From IMG/VR virus record IMGVR_UViG_3300025668_000792, positions 1 to 40,656 of that record: a stretch of DNA of 40,656 bases. The stretch is one strand, 5' to 3'. Origin of the DNA: a virus. A model generated the notes under the pieces. It made no database searches and was not told where the DNA came from. It saw only the letters and a program-made list of their open reading frames with translations. The position numbers and the translations under genes were made by a program. Below, piece after piece: positions 3,967 to 34,771 of the stretch (position 1 is its first letter; each line of letters begins with the position of its first letter).

Positions 3967-5247
3967 ATGATGCTTCAACAAACTCCTCCAGAAATTCTAA
4001 GAAAAGTTAATTACGTTACTAAACGCGATGGTACTACTGAATCTTATGATGAAAATAAAATCAGTACTGCCGTTGCTAAAGCTATGAAATCGGTTGGGAT
4101 GAGAAGCAAAATGCTTCCAGGTGAAGTAGCTCTAGAAGTTACTGACAAGCTAAATACAGATGCAGAAGATTCAATTGTTGAAATTGATTTTGTACATCGT
4201 GCAGTTGAAAATGTTATTATGGATATGGGCTTGCATGACTTAGCCCGTGATTATATTCTTTTTCGTTATAACAATCAACCAGATATTTTCCGTAAGCGTA
4301 CAAACCTTAAGCCATATGAGTATCCACAGCTAGTAGAGTTTACAGATGCTATTCGCCATTCATATTGGGTACATACAGAGTTTAATTACTCTTCTGATAT
4401 TCAAGATATGAAAGTGCGCATGGCACCAGAAGAAGTTGAAATCGTAAAGAAAGCCATGTTGGCTATCTCGCAAATTGAGGTAGCTGTTAAAACTTTCTGG
4501 GCCAAAATTGGTGATCGTTTTCCTAAGCCAGAAGTAGCAGCTGTTGGTATTACGTTTGGTGAATCAGAAGTACGTCATGCTGACGCTTATTCAAACCTTA
4601 TTGAAATTATGGGACTTAATAACGAGTTTGAAAAAGTAGTCGAAGTACCTGCTATGAAAAAACGTATTGCTTATCTTGAGCAATCAATTGGTACTCCGGC
4701 AGATGATAAAGATTATTTCCACAAAATTATTTTGTTCTCAATGTTTGTGGAAAACGTTTCGTTATTCAGCCAGTTCTTAATTATGATGGCGTTTAATAAA
4801 CACAAAAATGTTCTCAAAGGTATTTCAAACGCCGTTGAAGCAACATCAAAAGAAGAAGATATTCATGCACGTTTTGGTTTTGAACTAGTAAACATTATTA
4901 GAGAAGAAAACCCAGAATGGTTTGATAAAGATAGTATTAATGAAGTGAATAGACTTTGCCGAGATGCTTTTAAAGCAGAGTCTGCAATCGTCGATTGGAT
5001 CTATGGTGAAACAGACCTAGACTTCCTACCAAAAGCAACAGTTAAAGAATTCCTTAAGCATCGTTTTAATCAATCGCTCAAAGCTATTGACATGAAACCA
5101 TTGTATGATGTTGACGAGGAAGCAGTACGCAGTACAGATTGGTTTGTTGAGGAAATCCTTAGCACCAAAAATGTTGACTTCTTTGTCAAGCGTTCTACTG
5201 CTTATTCAAAGAAAACTAAAGCTTTTACCGAAGACGATTTATTTTAG
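3967..5247 (+). CDS. nrdB: Ribonucleotide reductase class I beta subunit with N-terminal ATP-cone
   Basis: This 426-residue beta subunit makes the radical used by NrdA to reduce ribonucleotides. Residues ~13-105 are an ATP-cone (VTKRDGTTESYDENKI), a nucleotide-sensing domain usually found on NrdA. The ferritin-like core follows, with likely metal ligands Glu171, Glu201, His204, Glu262, Glu297 and His300, and the radical tyrosine at Tyr208 (H-x3-Y). The C-terminal tail TEDDLF should dock into NrdA. The first ligand appears to be Glu, not the Asp of E. coli NrdB. The core wording (QIEVAVKTFW, GESEVRHADAY) resembles Bacteroidetes-type NrdB from memory. Start could be ATG 3967 or 3970. Confidence 0.93.
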   Translation: MMLQQTPPEILRKVNYVTKRDGTTESYDENKISTAVAKAMKSVGMRSKMLPGEVALEVTDKLNTDAEDSIVEIDFVHRAVENVIMDMGLHDLARDYILFRYNNQPDIFRKRTNLKPYEYPQLVEFTDAIRHSYWVHTEFNYSSDIQDMKVRMAPEEVEIVKKAMLAISQIEVAVKTFWAKIGDRFPKPEVAAVGITFGESEVRHADAYSNLIEIMGLNNEFEKVVEVPAMKKRIAYLEQSIGTPADDKDYFHKIILFSMFVENVSLFSQFLIMMAFNKHKNVLKGISNAVEATSKEEDIHARFGFELVNIIREENPEWFDKDSINEVNRLCRDAFKAESAIVDWIYGETDLDFLPKATVKEFLKHRFNQSLKAIDMKPLYDVDEEAVRSTDWFVEEILSTKNVDFFVKRSTAYSKKTKAFTEDDLF

Positions 5248-5260
5248 AATAGAGGAAAAC

Positions 5261-6916
5261 ATGAAGAAATTTTATTGGTTAAACGAGGACTCTCGTACTT
5301 TTTTGTCACGCGGCTATTTAAGCAAAGGTGAAACACCTGAGAGTCGTATTCGTGACATTGCAAATAAAGCAGAAGAATATTTAAATGAGCCAGGATTTGC
5401 TGACAAATTCTATGATTATATGTCTCGTGGCTTTTATTCATTAGCAAGTCCTGTATGGGCTAACTATGGTAAAGAGCGTGGACTACCTGTGTCATGTTTT
5501 GGATCTTATATTGACGATAGTATGCAAGCTATTTTATTTAGCCATGCAGAAAATGGTATGTTAATGAAAAACGGTGGTGGTACATCAGGTTACTTTGGCG
5601 CTGTTCGTGGTCGAGGTGCAGGCATTACTGATCAAGGCGAGTCTTCAGGTTCCGTACACTTTATGCAAATGTATGATACGCTTGCACAAGTTGTTTCACA
5701 AGGCTCAGTTCGTCGTGGTTTCTTTGCAGCTTATCAAGATATTGAGCATCCTGATGCTGATGAGTTTCTTGATATTGCTACCGAAGGTAATCCTATCCAA
5801 GGTTTAACAACTGGTATTACAGTATCTGATAAGTTTATTGAAGATATGAAAGGTGGAGATAGTCAAAAACGTGCACTTTGGGCAAAGGTTTTACAACGCC
5901 GAGCTGAAGTTGGCTTTCCGTATATTCTTTTTTCTGACAACGTAAATAACGGAAGACCGCAAGTTTATAAAGACAAAGATATGCGAGTACATGCTTCTAA
6001 TATGTGTGCTGAAATCGCGTTACCATCCAGTCATGAAGAAACATTTACATGTGTACTTTCTTCTATTAACGTATTGCATTGGGATCAAATTAAAGATACT
6101 GACGCAATTGAAACAATGACAAAATTCCTTGATACTGTTTGCGAAGAATTTATTATTAAAACAGAAGGCCAGATCTATTTAAAACGATCTCGTGACTTTG
6201 CTGTAAACCACCGCGCACTTGGTGTTGGTATTCTTGGATGGCATTCGTTACTTCAATCAAAAATGATGGCGTTTGAAGGCTCAGCAGCAGCTAAATTAAA
6301 TTTAGAGATTGCACAAACATTACGTGAAAGATCACATGCAGCGTCTGCTGAGTTAGCAAAAACGCTTGGCGAGCCACCTTTACTAAAAGGTTATGGAATG
6401 CGTAATACCACGACTATGGCTATTGCACCAACTAAATCATCAAGCTTTATTCTTGGCCAAGTATCACAGTCTATTGAGCCTGAGTTTAGTAATTGCTACG
6501 TTAAAGACTTAGCTAAAATGAAAGTAACAATTAAAAATCCATATTTACAAAAAATCCTTGAGTCATATGGTAAAGATGATTTAGAAACGTGGGATCAAAT
6601 TAAAGCTGCAGATGGTTCAGTACAACAACTTGAGTTCTTGACTGAAGATGAGCGCGCTGTGTTTAAAACATTTTCTGAAATTAATCCAGAAAGAATTATT
6701 GACCAAGCAGCTGTTCGCCAAGAATATATAGATCAGAGCCAAAGTTTAAATCTTATGTTGGATCCTGATATGACAGTAAAAGAAATCAATCAACTCTATT
6801 TGTATGCGTGGGAAATGGGTGTAAAAAGCTTGTATTATAGTTATTCTATGTCAGCTGCACAGTCACTTACACGTAAAAGAGTTGCTTTGGAAGGGTGTGC
6901 AGCCTGCGAAGCATAA
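5261..6916 (+). CDS. nrdA: Ribonucleotide reductase class I alpha subunit lacking an ATP-cone
   Basis: The catalytic subunit reduces NDPs to dNDPs. Start is ATG 5261 with AGAGGAAA upstream; the frame is open further 5' but that overlaps nrdB. The 551-residue protein is much shorter than E. coli NrdA (761) because it starts directly in the barrel region, with no ATP-cone. Catalytic residues are visible: Cys79 (LPVSCFGSY), Asn247-Cys249-Glu251 (NMCAEIALP), Cys264 (TFTCVLSS) and the C-terminal CxxC pair Cys546/Cys549 for re-reduction. It lies 13 nt after nrdB. Overall activity control probably resides on NrdB. Confidence 0.95.
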
Positions 6917-6917
6917 T

Positions 6918-8111
6918 ATGAAGCATTTACATTATTTTGAAAACATAGTAAAAGATTTTAGAGACGACGGCAGATATAGAGTCTTTAACGATATACTTAG
7001 AGAACGAGGGTCTTTCCCTCGTTCAATATGGTATGGTAAATACGCGCCAAAAAACATTATCAACTGGTGCTCTAATGATTATCTTGGTATGGGTCAAAAT
7101 CAATATGTAATTGATGCAATGCATACTGCGCTTGATCAAACAGGTGCTGGATCTGGTGGTACTCGTAATATTGGTGGCACATCACATTACCATGTTACAC
7201 TAGAGCGAGAGCTAGCATTATTACATAAAAAAGAATCTGCCCTTTTGTTTTCAAGTGCTTATGTCGCTAATGAATGGGCTCTCGTAGCATTAAGTCGTAT
7301 TATAGATAACGTTTGTTTTATTTCAGACAATAAAAATCATGCATCTCTTATTATGGGTATGAAACACAGTCGTGCAAGTAAAATTGTTTTTGAACATAAT
7401 GATATGGAAGATCTAGAAAAATCGTTAAAGGCTGCAACAAAAGCTAAGCAAGTACCTATAATCGTATTTGAGTCCGTCTATTCTATGGATGGTGATGTAT
7501 CTCCAATAGAAAAAATATGTGATCTTGCAGATAAATACAATGCTATTACTTATATTGATGAAGTTCATGCAGTAGGTCTTTATGGAAAAACCGGTGCAGG
7601 TTATTGCGAAAAATTAGGATTAACAGAGAGAATAGATATTATAAATGGCACGTTGGGAAAAGCATTTGGAGTTCAAGGAGGGTATATTGCTGGTAATAGC
7701 GTTGTTATTGATAGTATTCGTTCTGTGGCTAGTGGATTTATTTTCACAACAAGCATATCCCCAGTCATCTGTGCCGGCGCCCTTGCCTCGATCAAATATC
7801 TCCGTGACCATACTTCCGCCCGTGAACGACATCAAGAGCGCGCAACCCAAGTAAAGAAACTATTAGTTGAGGCTGATATTCCAATTCATCCCAACGCATG
7901 TACGCATATCGTTCCTGTAATGGTTAACGATGCGTTCAAATGTAAAGCAGCGAGCGATACATTACTTAATGATTACGGAATTTATATCCAACCCATTAAT
8001 AGTCCAACTGTAAAAGCTGGAACTGAAAGATTAAGAATAGCGCCTACACCATTCCATACAGATATAATGATAGTGGAATTAGTAGAAGCGTTAAAAACTG
8101 TATTAAAATAA
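6918..8111 (+). CDS. hemA: 5-aminolevulinate synthase (Shemin pathway)
   Basis: The PLP enzyme condenses glycine and succinyl-CoA to 5-aminolevulinate, the first step of tetrapyrrole synthesis in alphaproteobacteria and mitochondria. The 397-residue product is full length. ALAS hallmarks are WCSNDYLGM (50-58), [10 protein letters not shown] (77-86), [10 protein letters not shown] (136-145), [10 protein letters not shown] (184-193), YIDEVHAVG with Asp214 and His217, and the PLP lysine Lys248 in GTLGKAFG. The [12 protein letters not shown] block and overall match favour ALAS over the related KBL, BioF and SPT enzymes. Start ATG 6918 lies 1 nt after nrdA with little SD, suggesting coupling. All active-site elements look intact. 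Confidence 0.93.
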
Positions 8112-8113
8112 AG

Positions 8114-8128
8114 GATTCATAATGAATC
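8114..8128. repeat. Perfect 15-bp palindrome over the ybaN-like start codon
   Basis: GATTCATAATGAATC has 7-bp arms around one central A and covers the RBS-start region of the YbaN-like gene. It contains two GANTC sites. The 1-nt spacer rules out an RNA hairpin of this form, so any function would be at the DNA level. It may be chance. Confidence 0.4.
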
Positions 8129-8604
8129 AACTTGAACATGCGTTTTTTAAGCGCAGGAAAGAGAGTAATAATATGAGTAAGATTAAAAAAGCCTTTTGGT
8201 TGACATTAGGTATTCTATTAGTAGGTGTAGCATATCTCGGAGTTCTTCTTCCAGGTTTGCCTTGGTCTACACCTATCCTTGGTGCAACATTTTGTTTTGC
8301 AAAATCAAGCCCAAGATTCCACAACTGGATTATGAACCATAAACGTTTTGGACCGTTTGTAAAAAACTGGTCAAAACTAAGAGTTTATCCACAGAAAGCA
8401 AAATATCTAATGGTTGCAGTAATGTCAACATCATTAGGATTTATGTTCTTTGGAACTGGAAACGTAAAAGCTACAATTTACATGGCTATCACGTTTGCAT
8501 TAATTGTTATTTGGGCATGGCGTTATCCAGGTAGTAAAGCAGAAGCAGAACGCAGAATTGCGGCCGGTGAACGTATCGGTTGGTTGAAAAGTAAAAAGGA
8601 TTAA
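8122..8604 (+). CDS. YbaN-like DUF454 membrane protein
   Basis: An inner-membrane protein of 160 residues. The DUF454/YbaN core is recognised by GVLLPGLPWSTPILGATF followed by CFAKSSPRFHNWIMNHKRFG and a downstream KLRVYPQKAK. Hydrophobic segments lie near residues 25-50, 93-111 and 116-133. Start ATG 8122 has the better RBS (AAGGA 8111-8115); ATG 8173 would remove a 17-residue basic N-terminus not expected in the family. The biochemical role of DUF454 is unknown. Its position between ALAS and a porin suggests co-acquisition from a bacterial chromosome, but I cannot link it to heme. Confidence 0.82.
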   Translation: MNQLEHAFFKRRKESNNMSKIKKAFWLTLGILLVGVAYLGVLLPGLPWSTPILGATFCFAKSSPRFHNWIMNHKRFGPFVKNWSKLRVYPQKAKYLMVAVMSTSLGFMFFGTGNVKATIYMAITFALIVIWAWRYPGSKAEAERRIAAGERIGWLKSKKD

Positions 8605-8608
8605 AGAA

Positions 8609-9547
8609 ATGAAAATGTTAACAGGCGCTAGTATCCTAGCCATGATGGCAACTGGCGCATTCGCAGGTGGGCATGAAGTAGTAGAAGACAAGAACGGAAT
8701 GTACTTGAATGGTAATGTAGAAGTCTATATTGATGAAACATATCCTGAAGGTACAATCAATCCACGTGCAGAAGCATTCTTTGGATATGAAACAACGATT
8801 GATCATCCGTTTGCAAATTGGGTAGGTGCTGGTGCACGATTTGATACTAACTATTCGTTAGATCGTACTCAAGATAACCGAGTTCAAGAGATTCAAATGG
8901 GTGCAGAGATTGGTTACAATACTCGCATTTGGATGGGTGATACTGATGTGCAACGCTTAGGTTTTGCAAAAACATCTAAAACCGGTGCTCCTGTTATCAT
9001 TACAAACGACAACTCACGTATTGATCATAATACAAAAGTTGCTGTAACGTTTGGTGGTTGGGATTACAACGACGAATTTAAGTTCAACACATATAAGCTA
9101 AACAAAGAAATGCCATATGGTGGTGTTTTAGCATATGATCTAGAAACCAACGCGTTGTACGCGTCAGCTACTGCTCGTATCGCAATTGTTGATGTTTCGT
9201 ATATGGTTATTGAAAATGACGTAGAAACACAAACTGGTATGTCAGCTGGTGTTAACTTGCGTCCATTCGGTATTGCCGGTGGCATTGGTATTGAACAATG
9301 GGAAGATGCTGGTAATACACGTACAGATTATGGTGCAATGTATAGCCTAAACAGAAACGTGATGCTTGCAGCTCACCGTGTTGAAAGCGATGATATTGGT
9401 ATGACTCATAACTATTTCAGCGCATTGCATACGAAAAATGACGTTGAGCTAGGCTTGCATTATCACCAAGGCAAATCAATGTCTGTTCACGGCCGTACTA
9501 TCGATATCGATGATAGTCTAAAGGCTACAATCAAATATAAATTCTAA
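8609..9547 (+). CDS. Porin-like outer-membrane beta-barrel protein
   Basis: The 312-residue protein has a Sec signal peptide (MKMLTGASILAMMATGAFAG, cleavage likely after AFA), then alternating polar/hydrophobic strands rich in Gly, Tyr and Asn with no Cys. The last residues, LKATIKYKF, end in Phe, the BAM signature of outer-membrane barrels. The style resembles alphaproteobacterial porins. RBS AAGGA lies before ATG 8609. A phage porin could alter nutrient uptake, block superinfection by hiding a receptor, or act with the adjacent ALAS; the sequence does not decide. The exact family is not identified. Confidence 0.7.
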   Translation: MKMLTGASILAMMATGAFAGGHEVVEDKNGMYLNGNVEVYIDETYPEGTINPRAEAFFGYETTIDHPFANWVGAGARFDTNYSLDRTQDNRVQEIQMGAEIGYNTRIWMGDTDVQRLGFAKTSKTGAPVIITNDNSRIDHNTKVAVTFGGWDYNDEFKFNTYKLNKEMPYGGVLAYDLETNALYASATARIAIVDVSYMVIENDVETQTGMSAGVNLRPFGIAGGIGIEQWEDAGNTRTDYGAMYSLNRNVMLAAHRVESDDIGMTHNYFSALHTKNDVELGLHYHQGKSMSVHGRTIDIDDSLKATIKYKF

Positions 9548-28543: not shown

Positions 28544-31500
28544 ATGGCAATGAAAAGAAAAATAGACGGTAACGTTGAGATTACTGGCACATTAAATGAT
28601 CACACTATTCCAGCCGGAACAGGTACATTAGCACTTACAAGTGATATTACCACGACCGGCATAGAACTAGATGTTACTAATAGCGGTGATCAATTGATTA
28701 TCCAATCTAATGATACTGGATACCCAGAGCTTCTTTTAACGCAACCAGAACTTGTAAATTCTAACGCAAACGGACCAAAGATTACTCTTGAAAAGATTTC
28801 TTATGATAGTATTAACTCAACGCGAAATGGCGATGAACTCGGAAGAATAGATTTTAAAGGACACAGAAATGGTAACGTAGATCAGGTTTACGGAAGTATC
28901 ATTGGCATAAGTGCTGTTGATAATAACCCAGGACCTGGTGGCTGGATAGAATTTGAAGTTTCTGATATGAATGAAAATTCAAATGAAAAAATGGTAACTA
29001 TTTTTGGCGGAACTTCATCTAATCAATTTGCCCAAGGCCTTAGGATTGATCGTGGTAACTTGTGGTTAGCACCTTATTCAACATACACCGGCTCAATAAT
29101 TTTAGAAGGAAGTACACACGACCTAACAATAAGACCTACCGGTACAGAAACTTCAGGTGCTAACTTATTGATACCTCGTGAAGGTGGTACTGTAATAACA
29201 ACTAATAGTATAAATGATTACACTTCTGATTTGGCTTCTCCGGTTACTATACAACTTGATGCAGATGCAGTTAGTGGTGCTACATTAAATCTTTATCATA
29301 ATAGTGCTACACCTGCTGATGAAGATATTCTCGGTAGAATTAATTTTAACGGAGAAAACTCTGCTTCGGGTGAAGAGACTTTTGCGTATATACAAGCGCA
29401 CTCTAGTGACGTAACAAACACGAATGAAGATGGATATATTAAAATTGGTGGTCAGAAAGATGGCACTTTCAAGGTTTGGACAAATACTGGTTCTTTTACT
29501 AATGGTAGTGGTTTAGAGATTGTAACCGGAAATTTATACTTAAATGATATAACAGATGGAAATATTATTTTTGAAGGAAGCACCGACAACGGGTTTGAAA
29601 CTACGTTAACCGTTGAAGATCCGACTGCTGCACGAACAATTACATTGCCAGACAAAACAGGTACAGTTGCCTTAACATCAGATATTGGTGGATTGGTTAA
29701 CGTTTTATCATCAATAAATGTTGAAAATCCAACGCCTAAAGCCAGCGACGTTTTTGGGAATTCTGTTGATATATCTGGTGATTATATGATTGTAGGGGCA
29801 TACTTAGCAGACGGCTCTGGTAACGATAATGCAGGAAAAGCGTATATTTTTGATGTCCACACAGGCCATTTAATCCATACCTTAGATAATCCAAATGCTT
29901 TTAACACGTCAACTAGTGATAATTTTGGCCGAGCTGTAGGAATATCAGGCAATTATGCTGTTGTTGGTGCGCCGGGTGAAGATTCTTCTGGAAGCCTCGG
30001 CGCCGGTGTAGGTTATATTTTTAATGTAACAACTGGTGCCCTTATTCATACTGTTCAAAATCCAAACGCTTATAGTACTCCTGCTGCAGATAATTTTGGT
30101 AATTATATTGGAGTACATGGTAAATATTCTATATTTGGTTGTCCAAATGAAGACGATGCTGGCGGCTCTGGGTCAGGTAAAGCATATGTTATTAATAACG
30201 CAACCGGCGGGTTAGTCTATACATTTGATAACCCAAACGCGTTTGGTACTTCATTAAACGATAATTTTGGATCTAGTGTTGATATATCAGATAATTACGC
30301 TATCGTAGGCGCGCAATACGAAGACTTTGCATCAGCTGACAATAGTGGGCATGTATACGTGTTTGATCTAAGCACTGGATCGTTAGTTCACTCTAAAGCA
30401 AATCCAAACGCTTACGGTACAGTAACAAGTGATTATTTTGGATACGATGTCGCCATAGATGGTAATTATTTTGTAGTAGGCGCGGAAGGTGAATCCGACG
30501 TGAGCGGCACCGGATCAGGTAAAGCTTATGTGTTTGACACACAAAGTGGTGCATTACTTCACACCTTAGACAATCCAACTCCTTTTCCTGGTGATGCCTT
30601 CGGCCGACAGGTTGACATCTCTGGTAATTACACTATTGTATCAGCATATGGAGATAATACAACTAACAATTCAGGTGGCGCCGCTTATATCTTTAATTTA
30701 TCTACTGGCACATTAGCTGCAACTTTATTAAATCCAAATGTTGATCCAACTACTAATGCAGATGGGTTTGGTAATGCTCTTGCAATGTCAGGTGATAATA
30801 TTGTTGTAGGTTGTGAACAAGAAGATTCATCTGGGGCTACTAACAGCGGTTACGCTTTTCTGTATAACATAAGTGTTAATCCATATACCTACACACCTTA
30901 CGAAATTTCTACTTTTGCTACGGGCAGCGGCGGTAGCACTTATACTAATAGTGATGTCGACTCGCATTTAAACGCAGGTAGTGCAGGAACAAATGAAGTT
31001 TTAAGCTGGGATGGAGCAGATTATGATTGGGTAGCTCAGAGTACCGGCGGCGGAGCCCCAAGTGTTACTGCTACATTACTTCGAACTATAGATAACCCAA
31101 GCGCTGGCGGAAGTACTGATGACTTTGATGAGTTTGGCACGACTATAGCTATAAACGGCAATATAATCGCTGTTAGTGCGTACGGAGAGGAAGATCCGGA
31201 AACTGGTGAAACCCAGGCCGGCGTAGTTTATCTTTATGACGCAACTACTCACGAGTTACTTCATATAGTATTAAATCCTACGTGGTCAGGCATTACGACT
31301 GGAACACGAAACTTAGATAATGATGATACTAGGTTTGGTGGATTAGGTGAAAACGCAATGGATATATCTGGTAATTATATGATTGCCGGTGCTAAAAGCG
31401 CTGATGCGCCGATAAATGCTTCCGGTGTAGCCTATATTTTTGACATAACATCTGGTAAATTATTGCACGTTTTAACAAACAATACCGGCGCGGCATCAAA

Positions 31501-34500
31501 CGAGCTGATGGGTCATACGACTGTTATTGACGATAATCTCGCAGCTGTAAGTGTTTCGCAAGATGGCACTGGCGGATCTGTAATGGTTTATGAAGTTTCT
31601 ACGGGAACAAGAATTCGTAACATCCCAAATCCAAATCCTCAATCTGGTATTGGAGGTTTATTTGGTGAAGGGATGACACTTTCAAAAGGTCGCCTTGCGA
31701 TTTGGGCAAATTGGTACGATGGCAACAGCGATCCTCAAGGTAGAGTTTACATATATGATCCTATAACTGGTGAATTACTTCACACACTTGAAAATCCAGT
31801 GCAATCTTCTGCGAATGATAGGTTTGGTGAATGGATGCACATGGATGGAAACTACTTAGCAGTAGGTGTTCCAGAATATCTAGCACCTGCCGATAGAGGT
31901 AGAGTTTATATTTACAATGTTAACTCTGGAGCTCTTATACACACTTTAGAAAATCCTACAGGTATTGATGGCGATCATTTTGGAATGGGTATTAGTGTAT
32001 CTGGTAGTTTTGTTGCAGTTGGCGCTTATGCTTCTGATACTTCCGGCAGTAACGCTGGTTCAGCCTATATTTTTGATTTAGTCAGCGGTGATTTAGTTGA
32101 AACTATTGAAAATCCAAACGCGTTTAACACGTCTAGTAGTGATCTATTTGGTAGCCGGGTTTCTTTATCTGGAAATAGATTAATAGTAAATGCTAATGGA
32201 GAAGATACTGATAGTTCAACCGGGCGCAATTCGGGTAAAGTTTATTCATTTTATTTGGCAGGTGTACCTCCTTATGTGCCTAGCGGAGAACAAACTAAAC
32301 AATTAACTGCAGCAGCAACTACAAGAGGTTATTCAAGATTTGATTTAGAGCACGCTGTGGCAAATCCAAACCCGCTGGGCGATTCAACTGTCCCGGGATT
32401 TAACAATTTTGGTAAGGTCGTAGATATATCAGGTGATTATTTTGTAGCTGGCGCCATGTCCGAAAGTCGAGCATATATTGGTAGTGCTAAAACAGGTAAA
32501 ATTTTACACATTTTAAATAATCCAAATATTAATGATACCTCGCTTTCTGCGACTGGTGATCAATTTGGAAGTAGCGTAGCAATTTCTGGCAACTATTGTG
32601 CAATATCGGCAATGGCGGAAGATCCAAACGTAAATAACGTTGCTAGTGACGCTGGGGCAATTTATATTTTCAACGTTATTACTGGAGCATTAGTCCATAC
32701 TTTAGTTCCGAGAGTAATTTTTGAAGCAGGTAATAATACTGATTTAAGTTTAGGTGGTGAAGGACATGGTCTTGCAATGGACGGAAGATATTTAGTCGCA
32801 GGTTCATATAATATCACTAGCGGAACTAATGGAAGAGTTTTTGTATATGACGTATTTACTGGAACCCTGCTTTATACTGTTGAAGATCCTAAGGTGAATG
32901 GCTTTGGCTTAACGCAAAATCACTTTGGATATAGTGTCGACATTCAAGGTAATCATTTTATTGTTGGTGCATATACAGATGATCTTGGAACTGGGTATTC
33001 AGAAGGTGTAGCTCATGTTTATGACTTGGATAGTGGTAGGTTATTGCATACATATTCTCATCCATCAAGTACATCAACAGGCGAATTCGGCGTAGAGGTA
33101 GCAATTTCTGGCGACTACGCAGTTGTTAGTAACCCAACATCAACCGTATTCCAAGATAGCACCATTATTGCTAAAGGTCTACTTCGTGTTTATAGCATAA
33201 AAACTGGAAAATTGCTGCGTGAGATTGGTAACCCTCTTGTGTTTAATCCTCGAGGTGGTTATGCAAATCCTACTTTTACATCTTCAACATACGGCGGGGC
33301 ACCAGTGTTTGATGGCGAAACAGGAAATAGTAGTAAATACGACAACCCTTCTGAAATCAATTTTGGTTATAATCTAAAAATGGATGGTGACTATTTAATT
33401 GTCGGTGCCGATGAAGAAGATTCGGGCCGTGATCTCGGAGGTGGCGCAGCATACGTTTATGATGTAAGAAGTGGAGACCTTGTTTATAAACTTAAAAATC
33501 CAAGTTTTGCACTTAGCTCAGACGACACCGACAGCGAAGTCGATAAGTTCGGCGAAACATGCGCAATAAGCGGAAATCGTATTATAATTGGTGCAACTGG
33601 TGCTGTAGTTGGTGATGAAAGTGGTGCCGGTGCAGTTTACATATTTAAGCATGGAGGTATGCCAAATTATTCATATAATGCTCAGGAAACCGCTTCTTTT
33701 ACTGCAGGCTCATCTACTAATGGCCACGTTGTTATGGGAAATCAAGTTATTCGTAAAGAAAGCTTTGCTGGCGTTACGACTGAATTATCTAAGAAATATG
33801 GGCCTATGTATCTCGCGAATGTTCAGCTTCAAATTACCGTTAATACTATAAGACCAGATTTTGACGGCCTGTTGCAAACTATAAATCCTAACTCAGGTAA
33901 CCCTGGATATGGTATGACGCCGTTTTTTGCAAAAGCTTTGTCGTTCAGTCCAAGAACTAATAGACGCTATCTTCACGCTAAAGCCAATTGGCCGTCAGGC
34001 GATACTAGCAGTGAAATGAATAACACAGATACAGATAGAGGTATTCAAGATATTAAAATAGGATATGATGGAGTCAATGGAACAGAAAATACCGTAGTAG
34101 TTCATTGTAAAAATCACGGTTTTACGAGTGCCGAGATTGTTATAATATCAAACCCTGGATCAGTAAGCAATTTAAAAGGTATCTCGTATTATGCCGGATT
34201 GATAGACGATGATACTTTTATACTATATACAGACTCTGGCTTAACTACACAATTAAATGGTCAATTTTTGCCTCTTTTTTCTTCCTATTCAGGATCTGAA
34301 TATTGTAGAGGTAACAGTACTAATGCTTGGGCTTCAGCCTCTGGTGCGATTGATTGGCTTGATTTTCAAAATGATTTTAATGATGGTAATTATGACAAAG
34401 ACGATAGGGTTTACGCAGATAATGATGGAACATATGATGCGTTTTATGAACTTCAAGCAGAAGTACAAAAGGATTTTCATTTATACGCTGATCATATAAT

Positions 34501-34771
34501 AGATAGTTTACAGTCTGGCAGCACAACTTATTCTGATCGTTCTTTGTTTGAAAATAATCCAGGATTAGGTGATTATACTGGTGCAGGCGATATTACTGTT
34601 GGTAATGGAAATGATGAACAAAATATAACTATAAAAAGTCCTGTAATATTTCCGCCTTTTACTACAGCGGAAAGAGATGCAATACGCAATAAACAAAATG
34701 GCATGGTAGTTTTTAATACTTCAACTGTCAAATTACAATTATATAATGCAGGAGCTTGGACTGATTTATAA
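28544..34771 (+). CDS. Giant fiber/adhesin with three seven-bladed FG-GAP-like propellers
   Basis: 2075 residues. Residues 1-380 are fiber-like beta repeats (GTLALTSDI, GTVITTN, GTVALTSDI). About 385-1711 hold 21 repeats of the pattern DxFGxxVxISGxYxIVGAxxED...GxAYIFDxxTGxLxHTLxNPN, an FG-GAP/integrin-like beta-propeller blade. They fall into three sets of seven, each ending in a Pro/Tyr-rich linker (VNPYTYTPYE, VPPYVPSGEQ, MPNYSYNAQE). The C-terminus has a helix-poor globular part, a probable coiled section (FYELQAEVQKDFHLYADHII) and the fiber-tip ending TTAERDAIRNKQNG...W. Likely a host-surface adhesin at the fiber tip. RBS AGGA before ATG 28544. Confidence 0.82.
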   Translation: MAMKRKIDGNVEITGTLNDHTIPAGTGTLALTSDITTTGIELDVTNSGDQLIIQSNDTGYPELLLTQPELVNSNANGPKITLEKISYDSINSTRNGDELGRIDFKGHRNGNVDQVYGSIIGISAVDNNPGPGGWIEFEVSDMNENSNEKMVTIFGGTSSNQFAQGLRIDRGNLWLAPYSTYTGSIILEGSTHDLTIRPTGTETSGANLLIPREGGTVITTNSINDYTSDLASPVTIQLDADAVSGATLNLYHNSATPADEDILGRINFNGENSASGEETFAYIQAHSSDVTNTNEDGYIKIGGQKDGTFKVWTNTGSFTNGSGLEIVTGNLYLNDITDGNIIFEGSTDNGFETTLTVEDPTAARTITLPDKTGTVALTSDIGGLVNVLSSINVENPTPKASDVFGNSVDISGDYMIVGAYLADGSGNDNAGKAYIFDVHTGHLIHTLDNPNAFNTSTSDNFGRAVGISGNYAVVGAPGEDSSGSLGAGVGYIFNVTTGALIHTVQNPNAYSTPAADNFGNYIGVHGKYSIFGCPNEDDAGGSGSGKAYVINNATGGLVYTFDNPNAFGTSLNDNFGSSVDISDNYAIVGAQYEDFASADNSGHVYVFDLSTGSLVHSKANPNAYGTVTSDYFGYDVAIDGNYFVVGAEGESDVSGTGSGKAYVFDTQSGALLHTLDNPTPFPGDAFGRQVDISGNYTIVSAYGDNTTNNSGGAAYIFNLSTGTLAATLLNPNVDPTTNADGFGNALAMSGDNIVVGCEQEDSSGATNSGYAFLYNISVNPYTYTPYEISTFATGSGGSTYTNSDVDSHLNAGSAGTNEVLSWDGADYDWVAQSTGGGAPSVTATLLRTIDNPSAGGSTDDFDEFGTTIAINGNIIAVSAYGEEDPETGETQAGVVYLYDATTHELLHIVLNPTWSGITTGTRNLDNDDTRFGGLGENAMDISGNYMIAGAKSADAPINASGVAYIFDITSGKLLHVLTNNTGAASNELMGHTTVIDDNLAAVSVSQDGTGGSVMVYEVSTGTRIRNIPNPNPQSGIGGLFGEGMTLSKGRLAIWANWYDGNSDPQGRVYIYDPITGELLHTLENPVQSSANDRFGEWMHMDGNYLAVGVPEYLAPADRGRVYIYNVNSGALIHTLENPTGIDGDHFGMGISVSGSFVAVGAYASDTSGSNAGSAYIFDLVSGDLVETIENPNAFNTSSSDLFGSRVSLSGNRLIVNANGEDTDSSTGRNSGKVYSFYLAGVPPYVPSGEQTKQLTAAATTRGYSRFDLEHAVANPNPLGDSTVPGFNNFGKVVDISGDYFVAGAMSESRAYIGSAKTGKILHILNNPNINDTSLSATGDQFGSSVAISGNYCAISAMAEDPNVNNVASDAGAIYIFNVITGALVHTLVPRVIFEAGNNTDLSLGGEGHGLAMDGRYLVAGSYNITSGTNGRVFVYDVFTGTLLYTVEDPKVNGFGLTQNHFGYSVDIQGNHFIVGAYTDDLGTGYSEGVAHVYDLDSGRLLHTYSHPSSTSTGEFGVEVAISGDYAVVSNPTSTVFQDSTIIAKGLLRVYSIKTGKLLREIGNPLVFNPRGGYANPTFTSSTYGGAPVFDGETGNSSKYDNPSEINFGYNLKMDGDYLIVGADEEDSGRDLGGGAAYVYDVRSGDLVYKLKNPSFALSSDDTDSEVDKFGETCAISGNRIIIGATGAVVGDESGAGAVYIFKHGGMPNYSYNAQETASFTAGSSTNGHVVMGNQVIRKESFAGVTTELSKKYGPMYLANVQLQITVNTIRPDFDGLLQTINPNSGNPGYGMTPFFAKALSFSPRTNRRYLHAKANWPSGDTSSEMNNTDTDRGIQDIKIGYDGVNGTENTVVVHCKNHGFTSAEIVIISNPGSVSNLKGISYYAGLIDDDTFILYTDSGLTTQLNGQFLPLFSSYSGSEYCRGNSTNAWASASGAIDWLDFQNDFNDGNYDKDDRVYADNDGTYDAFYELQAEVQKDFHLYADHIIDSLQSGSTTYSDRSLFENNPGLGDYTGAGDITVGNGNDEQNITIKSPVIFPPFTTAERDAIRNKQNGMVVFNTSTVKLQLYNAGAWTDL
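29698..30906 (+). repeat. Propeller 1 (seven FG-GAP-like blades)
   Basis: Seven blades by hand count, beginning at DVFGNSVDISGDYMIVGA and ending at DGFGNALAMSGDNIVVGC. Each blade is ~52-60 residues. Repeat wording is closest to the consensus here, and the NPNAFNTS unit recurs in propeller 2. Confidence 0.7.
31061..32280 (+). repeat. Propeller 2 (seven FG-GAP-like blades)
   Basis: Seven blades, from DEFGTTIAINGNIIAVSA to DLFGSRVSLSGNRLIVNA. Spacing of blades and the closing linker mirror propeller 1. One blade (ELMGHTTVIDDNLAAVSV) has lost the FG pair. Confidence 0.65.
32330..33676 (+). repeat. Propeller 3 (seven FG-GAP-like blades)
   Basis: Seven blades, from NNFGKVVDISGDYFVAGA to DKFGETCAISGNRIIIGA. 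It has two longer inserted loops and the blade with GEGHGLAMDGRYLVAGS lacks the FG pair. The most diverged of the three. Confidence 0.62.

Follow-up and report, generated by a model that had tools for sequence, protein, structure and literature searches.

A near-constant pairing of 5-aminolevulinate synthase with a DUF454/YbaN protein in phages, and its possible role in heme supply

We have found that the 5-aminolevulinate synthase (ALAS) gene carried by many uncultured phages has a near-constant partner, which encodes a small membrane protein of the DUF454/YbaN family. This ALAS-DUF454 pair is the conserved unit, and a porin gene that may follow it is an optional neighbor. What is new is the near-constancy of the pair, its absence from the hosts sampled, and the heme-related neighborhoods of the nearest bacterial DUF454 genes; the main text of the earlier report on phage ALAS (PMC11480375) makes no mention of DUF454, ribonucleotide reductase (RNR) or porin. 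We hypothesize, with a probability of roughly 0.55, that the genes form a phage heme-supply module in which ALAS works with a membrane heme-handling protein and the porin is a mobile neighbor. Phages were only recently found to carry ALAS, and why they do so is debated; a membrane partner that is nearly always present leaves fewer possibilities. The pair also gives experiments a starting point on the DUF454 family, which occurs in E. coli and many other bacteria and has no assigned function.

Gene order and identity of the ALAS

The window, meaning the whole stretch of DNA that was analyzed, is a linear virus record of 40,656 bp from a marine phage (IMGVR_UViG_3300025668_000792) and represents a fragment. 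It carries phage genes for a primase, ThyX, RNR, PhoH, an exonuclease and a tail fibre. The genes of interest lie in a same-strand block with the order ThyX-nrdB-nrdA-ALAS-DUF454-porin-methyltransferase-epimerase, in which a single nucleotide separates the nrdA stop codon (6914-6916) from the ALAS start:

3967..5247, + strand: nrdB, RNR small subunit with an N-terminal ATP-cone (Ribonuc_red_sm 191 bits, ATP-cone 54.8 bits)
5252..6916, + strand: nrdA, RNR large subunit of the NrdE-prime type (TIGR02510 768 bits, cut-off 602)
6918..8111, + strand: predicted ALAS, a viral AlaS (TIGR01821 567.7 bits, catalytic residues, phage clade)
8122..8604, + strand: DUF454/YbaN protein, small, predicted at the inner membrane (PF04304 99.1 bits, partner of viral ALAS)
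8609..9547, + strand: predicted outer-membrane porin, optional third gene (AlphaFold model matches trimeric porins)

Much of the block from ThyX to the epimerase is common to many related phages, so the label of "insert" given to the three genes in the first-pass annotation is unsupported, and an insert peculiar to this genome was rejected. Low dN/dS values (0.07-0.12 for ALAS and DUF454, 0.07-0.28 for the porin) indicate that all three genes are under purifying selection and are thus selected to work. Elsewhere in the window, the regulatory ATP-cone resides on nrdB (3967-5247) and no ATP-cone model hits the large subunit; a 2075-aa ORF at 28544-34771, 3' of the tail fibre gene, is without a match in PHROG.

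Judged by its sequence, the ORF at 6918-8111 is a complete, genuine ALAS that is predicted to produce 5-aminolevulinate. It scores 567.7 bits against the TIGR01821 equivalog model (cut-off 338.6) and falls under the respective cut-offs of the models for glycine C-acetyltransferase (KBL), BioF and serine palmitoyltransferase. Equivalents of R. capsulatus R21, N54, T83, N85, H142, D214, H217, K248 and R374 are all kept, and nearly every one of the 153 phage ALAS sequences has the same nine catalytic or substrate residues. The first-pass annotation, which had described a complete ALAS with its active-site residues directly behind nrdA, was thus correct on this point, and a KBL or BioF identity was rejected on the basis of model scores and active-site residues. 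It had also mentioned phage-encoded ALAS from aquatic environments; phage-borne ALAS (valaS) has indeed been published (Wegner et al. 2024, Nat Commun, PMC11480375), and one phage homologue was active in E. coli (PMC11480375). The enzymatic step is therefore well supported, with identity predicted from sequence and activity by analogy with this active phage relative.

The residues linked to heme feedback were also compared. The equivalent of R. capsulatus His342 is a lysine in the window ALAS, and the C-terminal cysteine (Cys400) is absent; many of the viral AlaS proteins of PMC11480375 lack His342 and Cys400. Since 34 of 39 bacterial ALAS sequences also lack the His342 equivalent, its loss does not discriminate phage ALAS, and lost heme feedback makes a weak case as a special phage trait.

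The ALAS-DUF454 pair in phages and bacteria

A pattern-seeded scan of viral contigs returned 152 ALAS relatives and 276 DUF454 relatives, counts that are not estimates of abundance. The pair was counted among the 80 best ALAS loci of the 152 relatives, five of which end too early for the presence of DUF454 to be judged. In 68 of the 75 judgeable loci ALAS is followed by DUF454, and the two reading frames often overlap by 4 nt. The other seven belong to one phage type (L050-L056) whose stored records have no DUF454; there, a small, apparently membrane-bound protein of ~121 aa takes its place. About 48 distinct types of the pair remain when ALAS is collapsed at 95% identity, and the pair sits behind two different RNR types. 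The order is reversed (DUF454, then ALAS) in L150, L151, L154 and L155. In L150 a ferredoxin-dependent bilin reductase gene (PF05996) follows ALAS directly with overlapping frames, and the order DUF454-ALAS-bilin reductase is shared by relatives of this locus. In one 201-kb phage record the two genes lie ~35 kb apart. When L082 is compared with the window, the DUF454 proteins are 92% identical and the ALAS proteins only 76%, and this unequal divergence suggests exchange of single genes with the pairing retained.

Three of the retrieved ALAS loci have an alternative oxidase gene adjoining or near ALAS (L073:5860-6441, L077:9182-9745 and L079:9183-9746; PF01786, ~238 bits for L077 and L079). This is a heme-free terminal oxidase and therefore a striking neighbor for a heme gene.

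Phylogenetic trees separate the phage forms of both genes from those of bacteria. The ALAS tree, which covers 52 phage and 39 bacterial sequences other than those of PMC11480375, divides the two sets at a single split with support of 100. The phage DUF454 proteins form one clade (support 99) on a long branch apart from bacterial DUF454, and the bacterial branches nearest to it are placed with support of 83-87. Potential hosts were sampled as 96 Alphaproteobacteria, of which 67 have ALAS and 25 have DUF454. None of the 26 DUF454 genes in these 96 genomes adjoins ALAS, and no DUF454 lies within 1.5 kb of ALAS at 29 bacterial ALAS loci; the comparison with host hemA neighborhoods proposed in the first-pass annotation thus revealed no DUF454 there in the Alphaproteobacteria sample. 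A host origin of the pair was rejected because the pair was not found in the 96 Alphaproteobacteria. Since the two genes are never adjacent in this sample, the pairing looks phage-made; the two genes seem to have come together in phages, or in some host outside the sample. The pair does appear at five loci (L161-L165) in public bacterial metagenome-assembled genomes, with L163 in Rhodobacteraceae Water_Bin34. These are probably phage contigs mis-binned into bacterial genomes.

Features and neighborhoods of DUF454 and the porin

The window DUF454 scores 99.1 bits against PF04304 (cut-off 35.1). The phage proteins keep the family-invariant residues G30, G40, P44, P47, A55, W69, H73, G77, W83 and K94, together with C58, which is mostly conserved in the family; His73 and Cys58 are candidate ligands. 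The AlphaFold model (pLDDT 88) has helices at 20-42, 91-112 and 115-133, which would be consistent with an inner-membrane location. Compared with solved structures, DUF454 had no sequence match and no clear fold match by Foldseek or VIA. A known fold could therefore not be assigned, from which novelty of the fold does not follow. The few DUF454 matches in GenBank phages (26-35% identity) resemble host sequence in phage-labelled records.

In bacteria, the nearest DUF454s were retrieved by DUF454 similarity alone. A heme gene lies within 6 kb in 35 of these 75 loci, which are clustered by taxon, and it is directly adjacent in 32 of the 35. Four contexts recur: ferrochelatase, heme oxygenase, a heme-uptake type ABC transporter with HmuQ, and HemW. 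On the bacterial branches that lie nearest to the phage clade, DUF454 neighbors ferrochelatase (L166, L167) or HemY_N (L296). The gene directly upstream of the L166 DUF454 was considered as a heme-biosynthesis gene and rejected, as its protein resembles an EamA-type transporter. A 2025 study independently describes DUF454, haem oxygenase and TonB domains as co-occurring near T11SS genes (PMC12282271). The common theme of these neighbors is heme itself rather than 5-aminolevulinate. Of the 26 DUF454 genes in the unbiased Alphaproteobacteria sample, only 3 have a recognized heme gene within 1.5 kb, so the heme link is good for some DUF454 branches and not clearly for all. The frequent position of DUF454 beside heme genes in bacteria suggests that it handles heme, a role we offer as a reasoned guess.

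For the third gene (8609-9547), searches against Pfam, PHROG and NCBIfam came back empty, PDB sequences gave no meaningful match, and GenBank phages gave none. Its AlphaFold model (mean pLDDT 72) matches OmpU, the R. blastica porin and OmpF/C (Foldseek E ~1e-9; VIA Z ~21 over ~260 residues), and the sequence has a signal peptide and a C-terminal Phe. As modeled, it is a trimeric-type general porin barrel. The first-pass annotation of ALAS as joined to a DUF454/YbaN protein and an outer-membrane protein therefore stands.

Gene contexts were counted over 80 retrieved viral porin loci. The porin follows DUF454 in 19, and 18 of these have ALAS on the stored stretch. The refuting condition named in the first-pass annotation, that the three genes never co-occur elsewhere, thus fails, since the trio recurs; that part of the first-pass annotation which treated the trio as the unit holds for ALAS-DUF454 and leaves the porin optional. 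In 11 of the 80 loci the porin follows a hemO-bilin reductase cassette; heme oxygenase, bilin reductase and a porin relative are neighbors at L383:4610-6939 and in ten similar loci (among L375-L386). The commonest context (~26 of 80) is after the major capsid gene. At L337:4700-6996 and ~25 similar loci a porin relative lies directly 3' of a T4-type major capsid gene, identified as Gp23 by Pfam in L337, which is an odd site for an outer-membrane protein. Because it occurs in several gene contexts, the porin appears to be a mobile envelope gene whose tie to tetrapyrrole cassettes is recurring and not exclusive. Its recurrence beside two different tetrapyrrole cassettes would mean that these phages remodel the outer membrane as well.

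Proposed module, rival explanations and known systems

We propose a tetrapyrrole auxiliary module located just behind the RNR genes. In the infected cell, ALAS would condense glycine and succinyl-CoA to 5-aminolevulinate, which would support heme synthesis. An altered TCA flow, raised in the first-pass annotation because the enzyme uses succinyl-CoA, is speculative. The DUF454 gene comes directly next and is probably transcribed together with ALAS; its product may sit in the inner membrane. The pairing is observed, and the function assigned here is that the protein would help to handle heme, be it through binding, transfer, export or buffering, such that respiration could continue during infection. 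A gene for a trimeric-type porin would have settled behind the pair in some phage lineages without being required, and may alter the permeability or receptor properties of the outer membrane. A more specific version, in which DUF454/YbaN is an inner-membrane heme handler and the phages have built a matched pair unlike any in bacteria, with ALAS raising heme synthesis and DUF454 managing the product, is tentative, and we consider its odds to be somewhat below even.

It is possible, although rather unlikely, that ALAS is a source of 5-aminolevulinate while DUF454 has an unrelated role in membrane remodelling, lysis timing or envelope change, the pair being one inherited ancestral cassette. Each gene forms a single phage clade, so the two may have been linked only once; heme neighbors are also rare in the unbiased bacterial sample, and DUF454 occurs in phage records in which ALAS was not detected. 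Against this, the pair has been retained despite the unequal divergence seen in L082, one lineage has it in reversed order together with bilin reductase, and the nearest bacterial DUF454s adjoin heme genes in four different contexts.

Other readings retain a tetrapyrrole role and differ in its product. The cassette might serve the production of bilins and iron instead of heme supply, with 5-aminolevulinate converted to heme and then to bilins and free iron via phage heme oxygenase and bilin reductase. The bilin reductase directly after ALAS in L150, the 11 hemO-bilin reductase-porin loci and the cassette described in PMC11480375 fit this reading, as does heme oxygenase in 11 of 24 related phage records, whereas 13 of the 24, including records of 137 kb and 156 kb, have none, nor does the 40.7-kb window. 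Such absences are weak evidence, since the records are fragments, and we regard bilin or iron production as improbable. In favor of a heme link of DUF454, heme oxygenase is carried by all three large phage records that have DUF454 with no ALAS detected. Its co-occurrence is not specific to DUF454, because 6 of 19 records that bear the porin and lack DUF454 have it as well; an enrichment in DUF454 phages was rejected for want of a clear difference (11/24 vs 6/19), and the comparison is confounded, as the control porin often adjoins heme oxygenase. A joint function of all three genes, with heme, iron or precursors taken up through the porin, would account for porins behind both DUF454 and hemO-bilin reductase (19 and 11 of the 80 porin loci), but the porin mostly follows the major capsid gene or other genes, and it is present in only 12 of the 80 best ALAS loci, so that most ALAS-DUF454 loci do without it. 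We consider this very improbable. Heme supply by ALAS and a membrane heme handler remains our preferred reading.

Four known systems bear comparison with the window. The viral AlaS of PMC11480375 is likewise phage-borne, has complete catalytic residues and falls in a clade apart from bacterial ALAS. It occurs alone or with hemO and pcyA/X, whereas the window has an RNR-ALAS-DUF454-porin block and no heme oxygenase in its 40.7-kb fragment. Bacterial DUF454/YbaN (PF04304) belongs to one family with phage DUF454 and has identical invariant residues; in contrast, the phage protein forms its own long-branch clade and pairs with ALAS, a pairing unseen in the sampled Alphaproteobacteria. The trimeric general porins (OmpU, OmpF/OmpC and the Rhodobacter porin) share the predicted barrel fold, signal peptide and C-terminal Phe with the window porin, which differs in its low identity to them (~10-13%), its lack of a Pfam match and its phage origin. 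Finally, the hemO-pcyA/X cassette of marine phages is also a set of tetrapyrrole auxiliary genes, with a related phage porin behind it in 11 loci. That cassette degrades heme to bilins, whereas the window is predicted to encode the first biosynthetic step.
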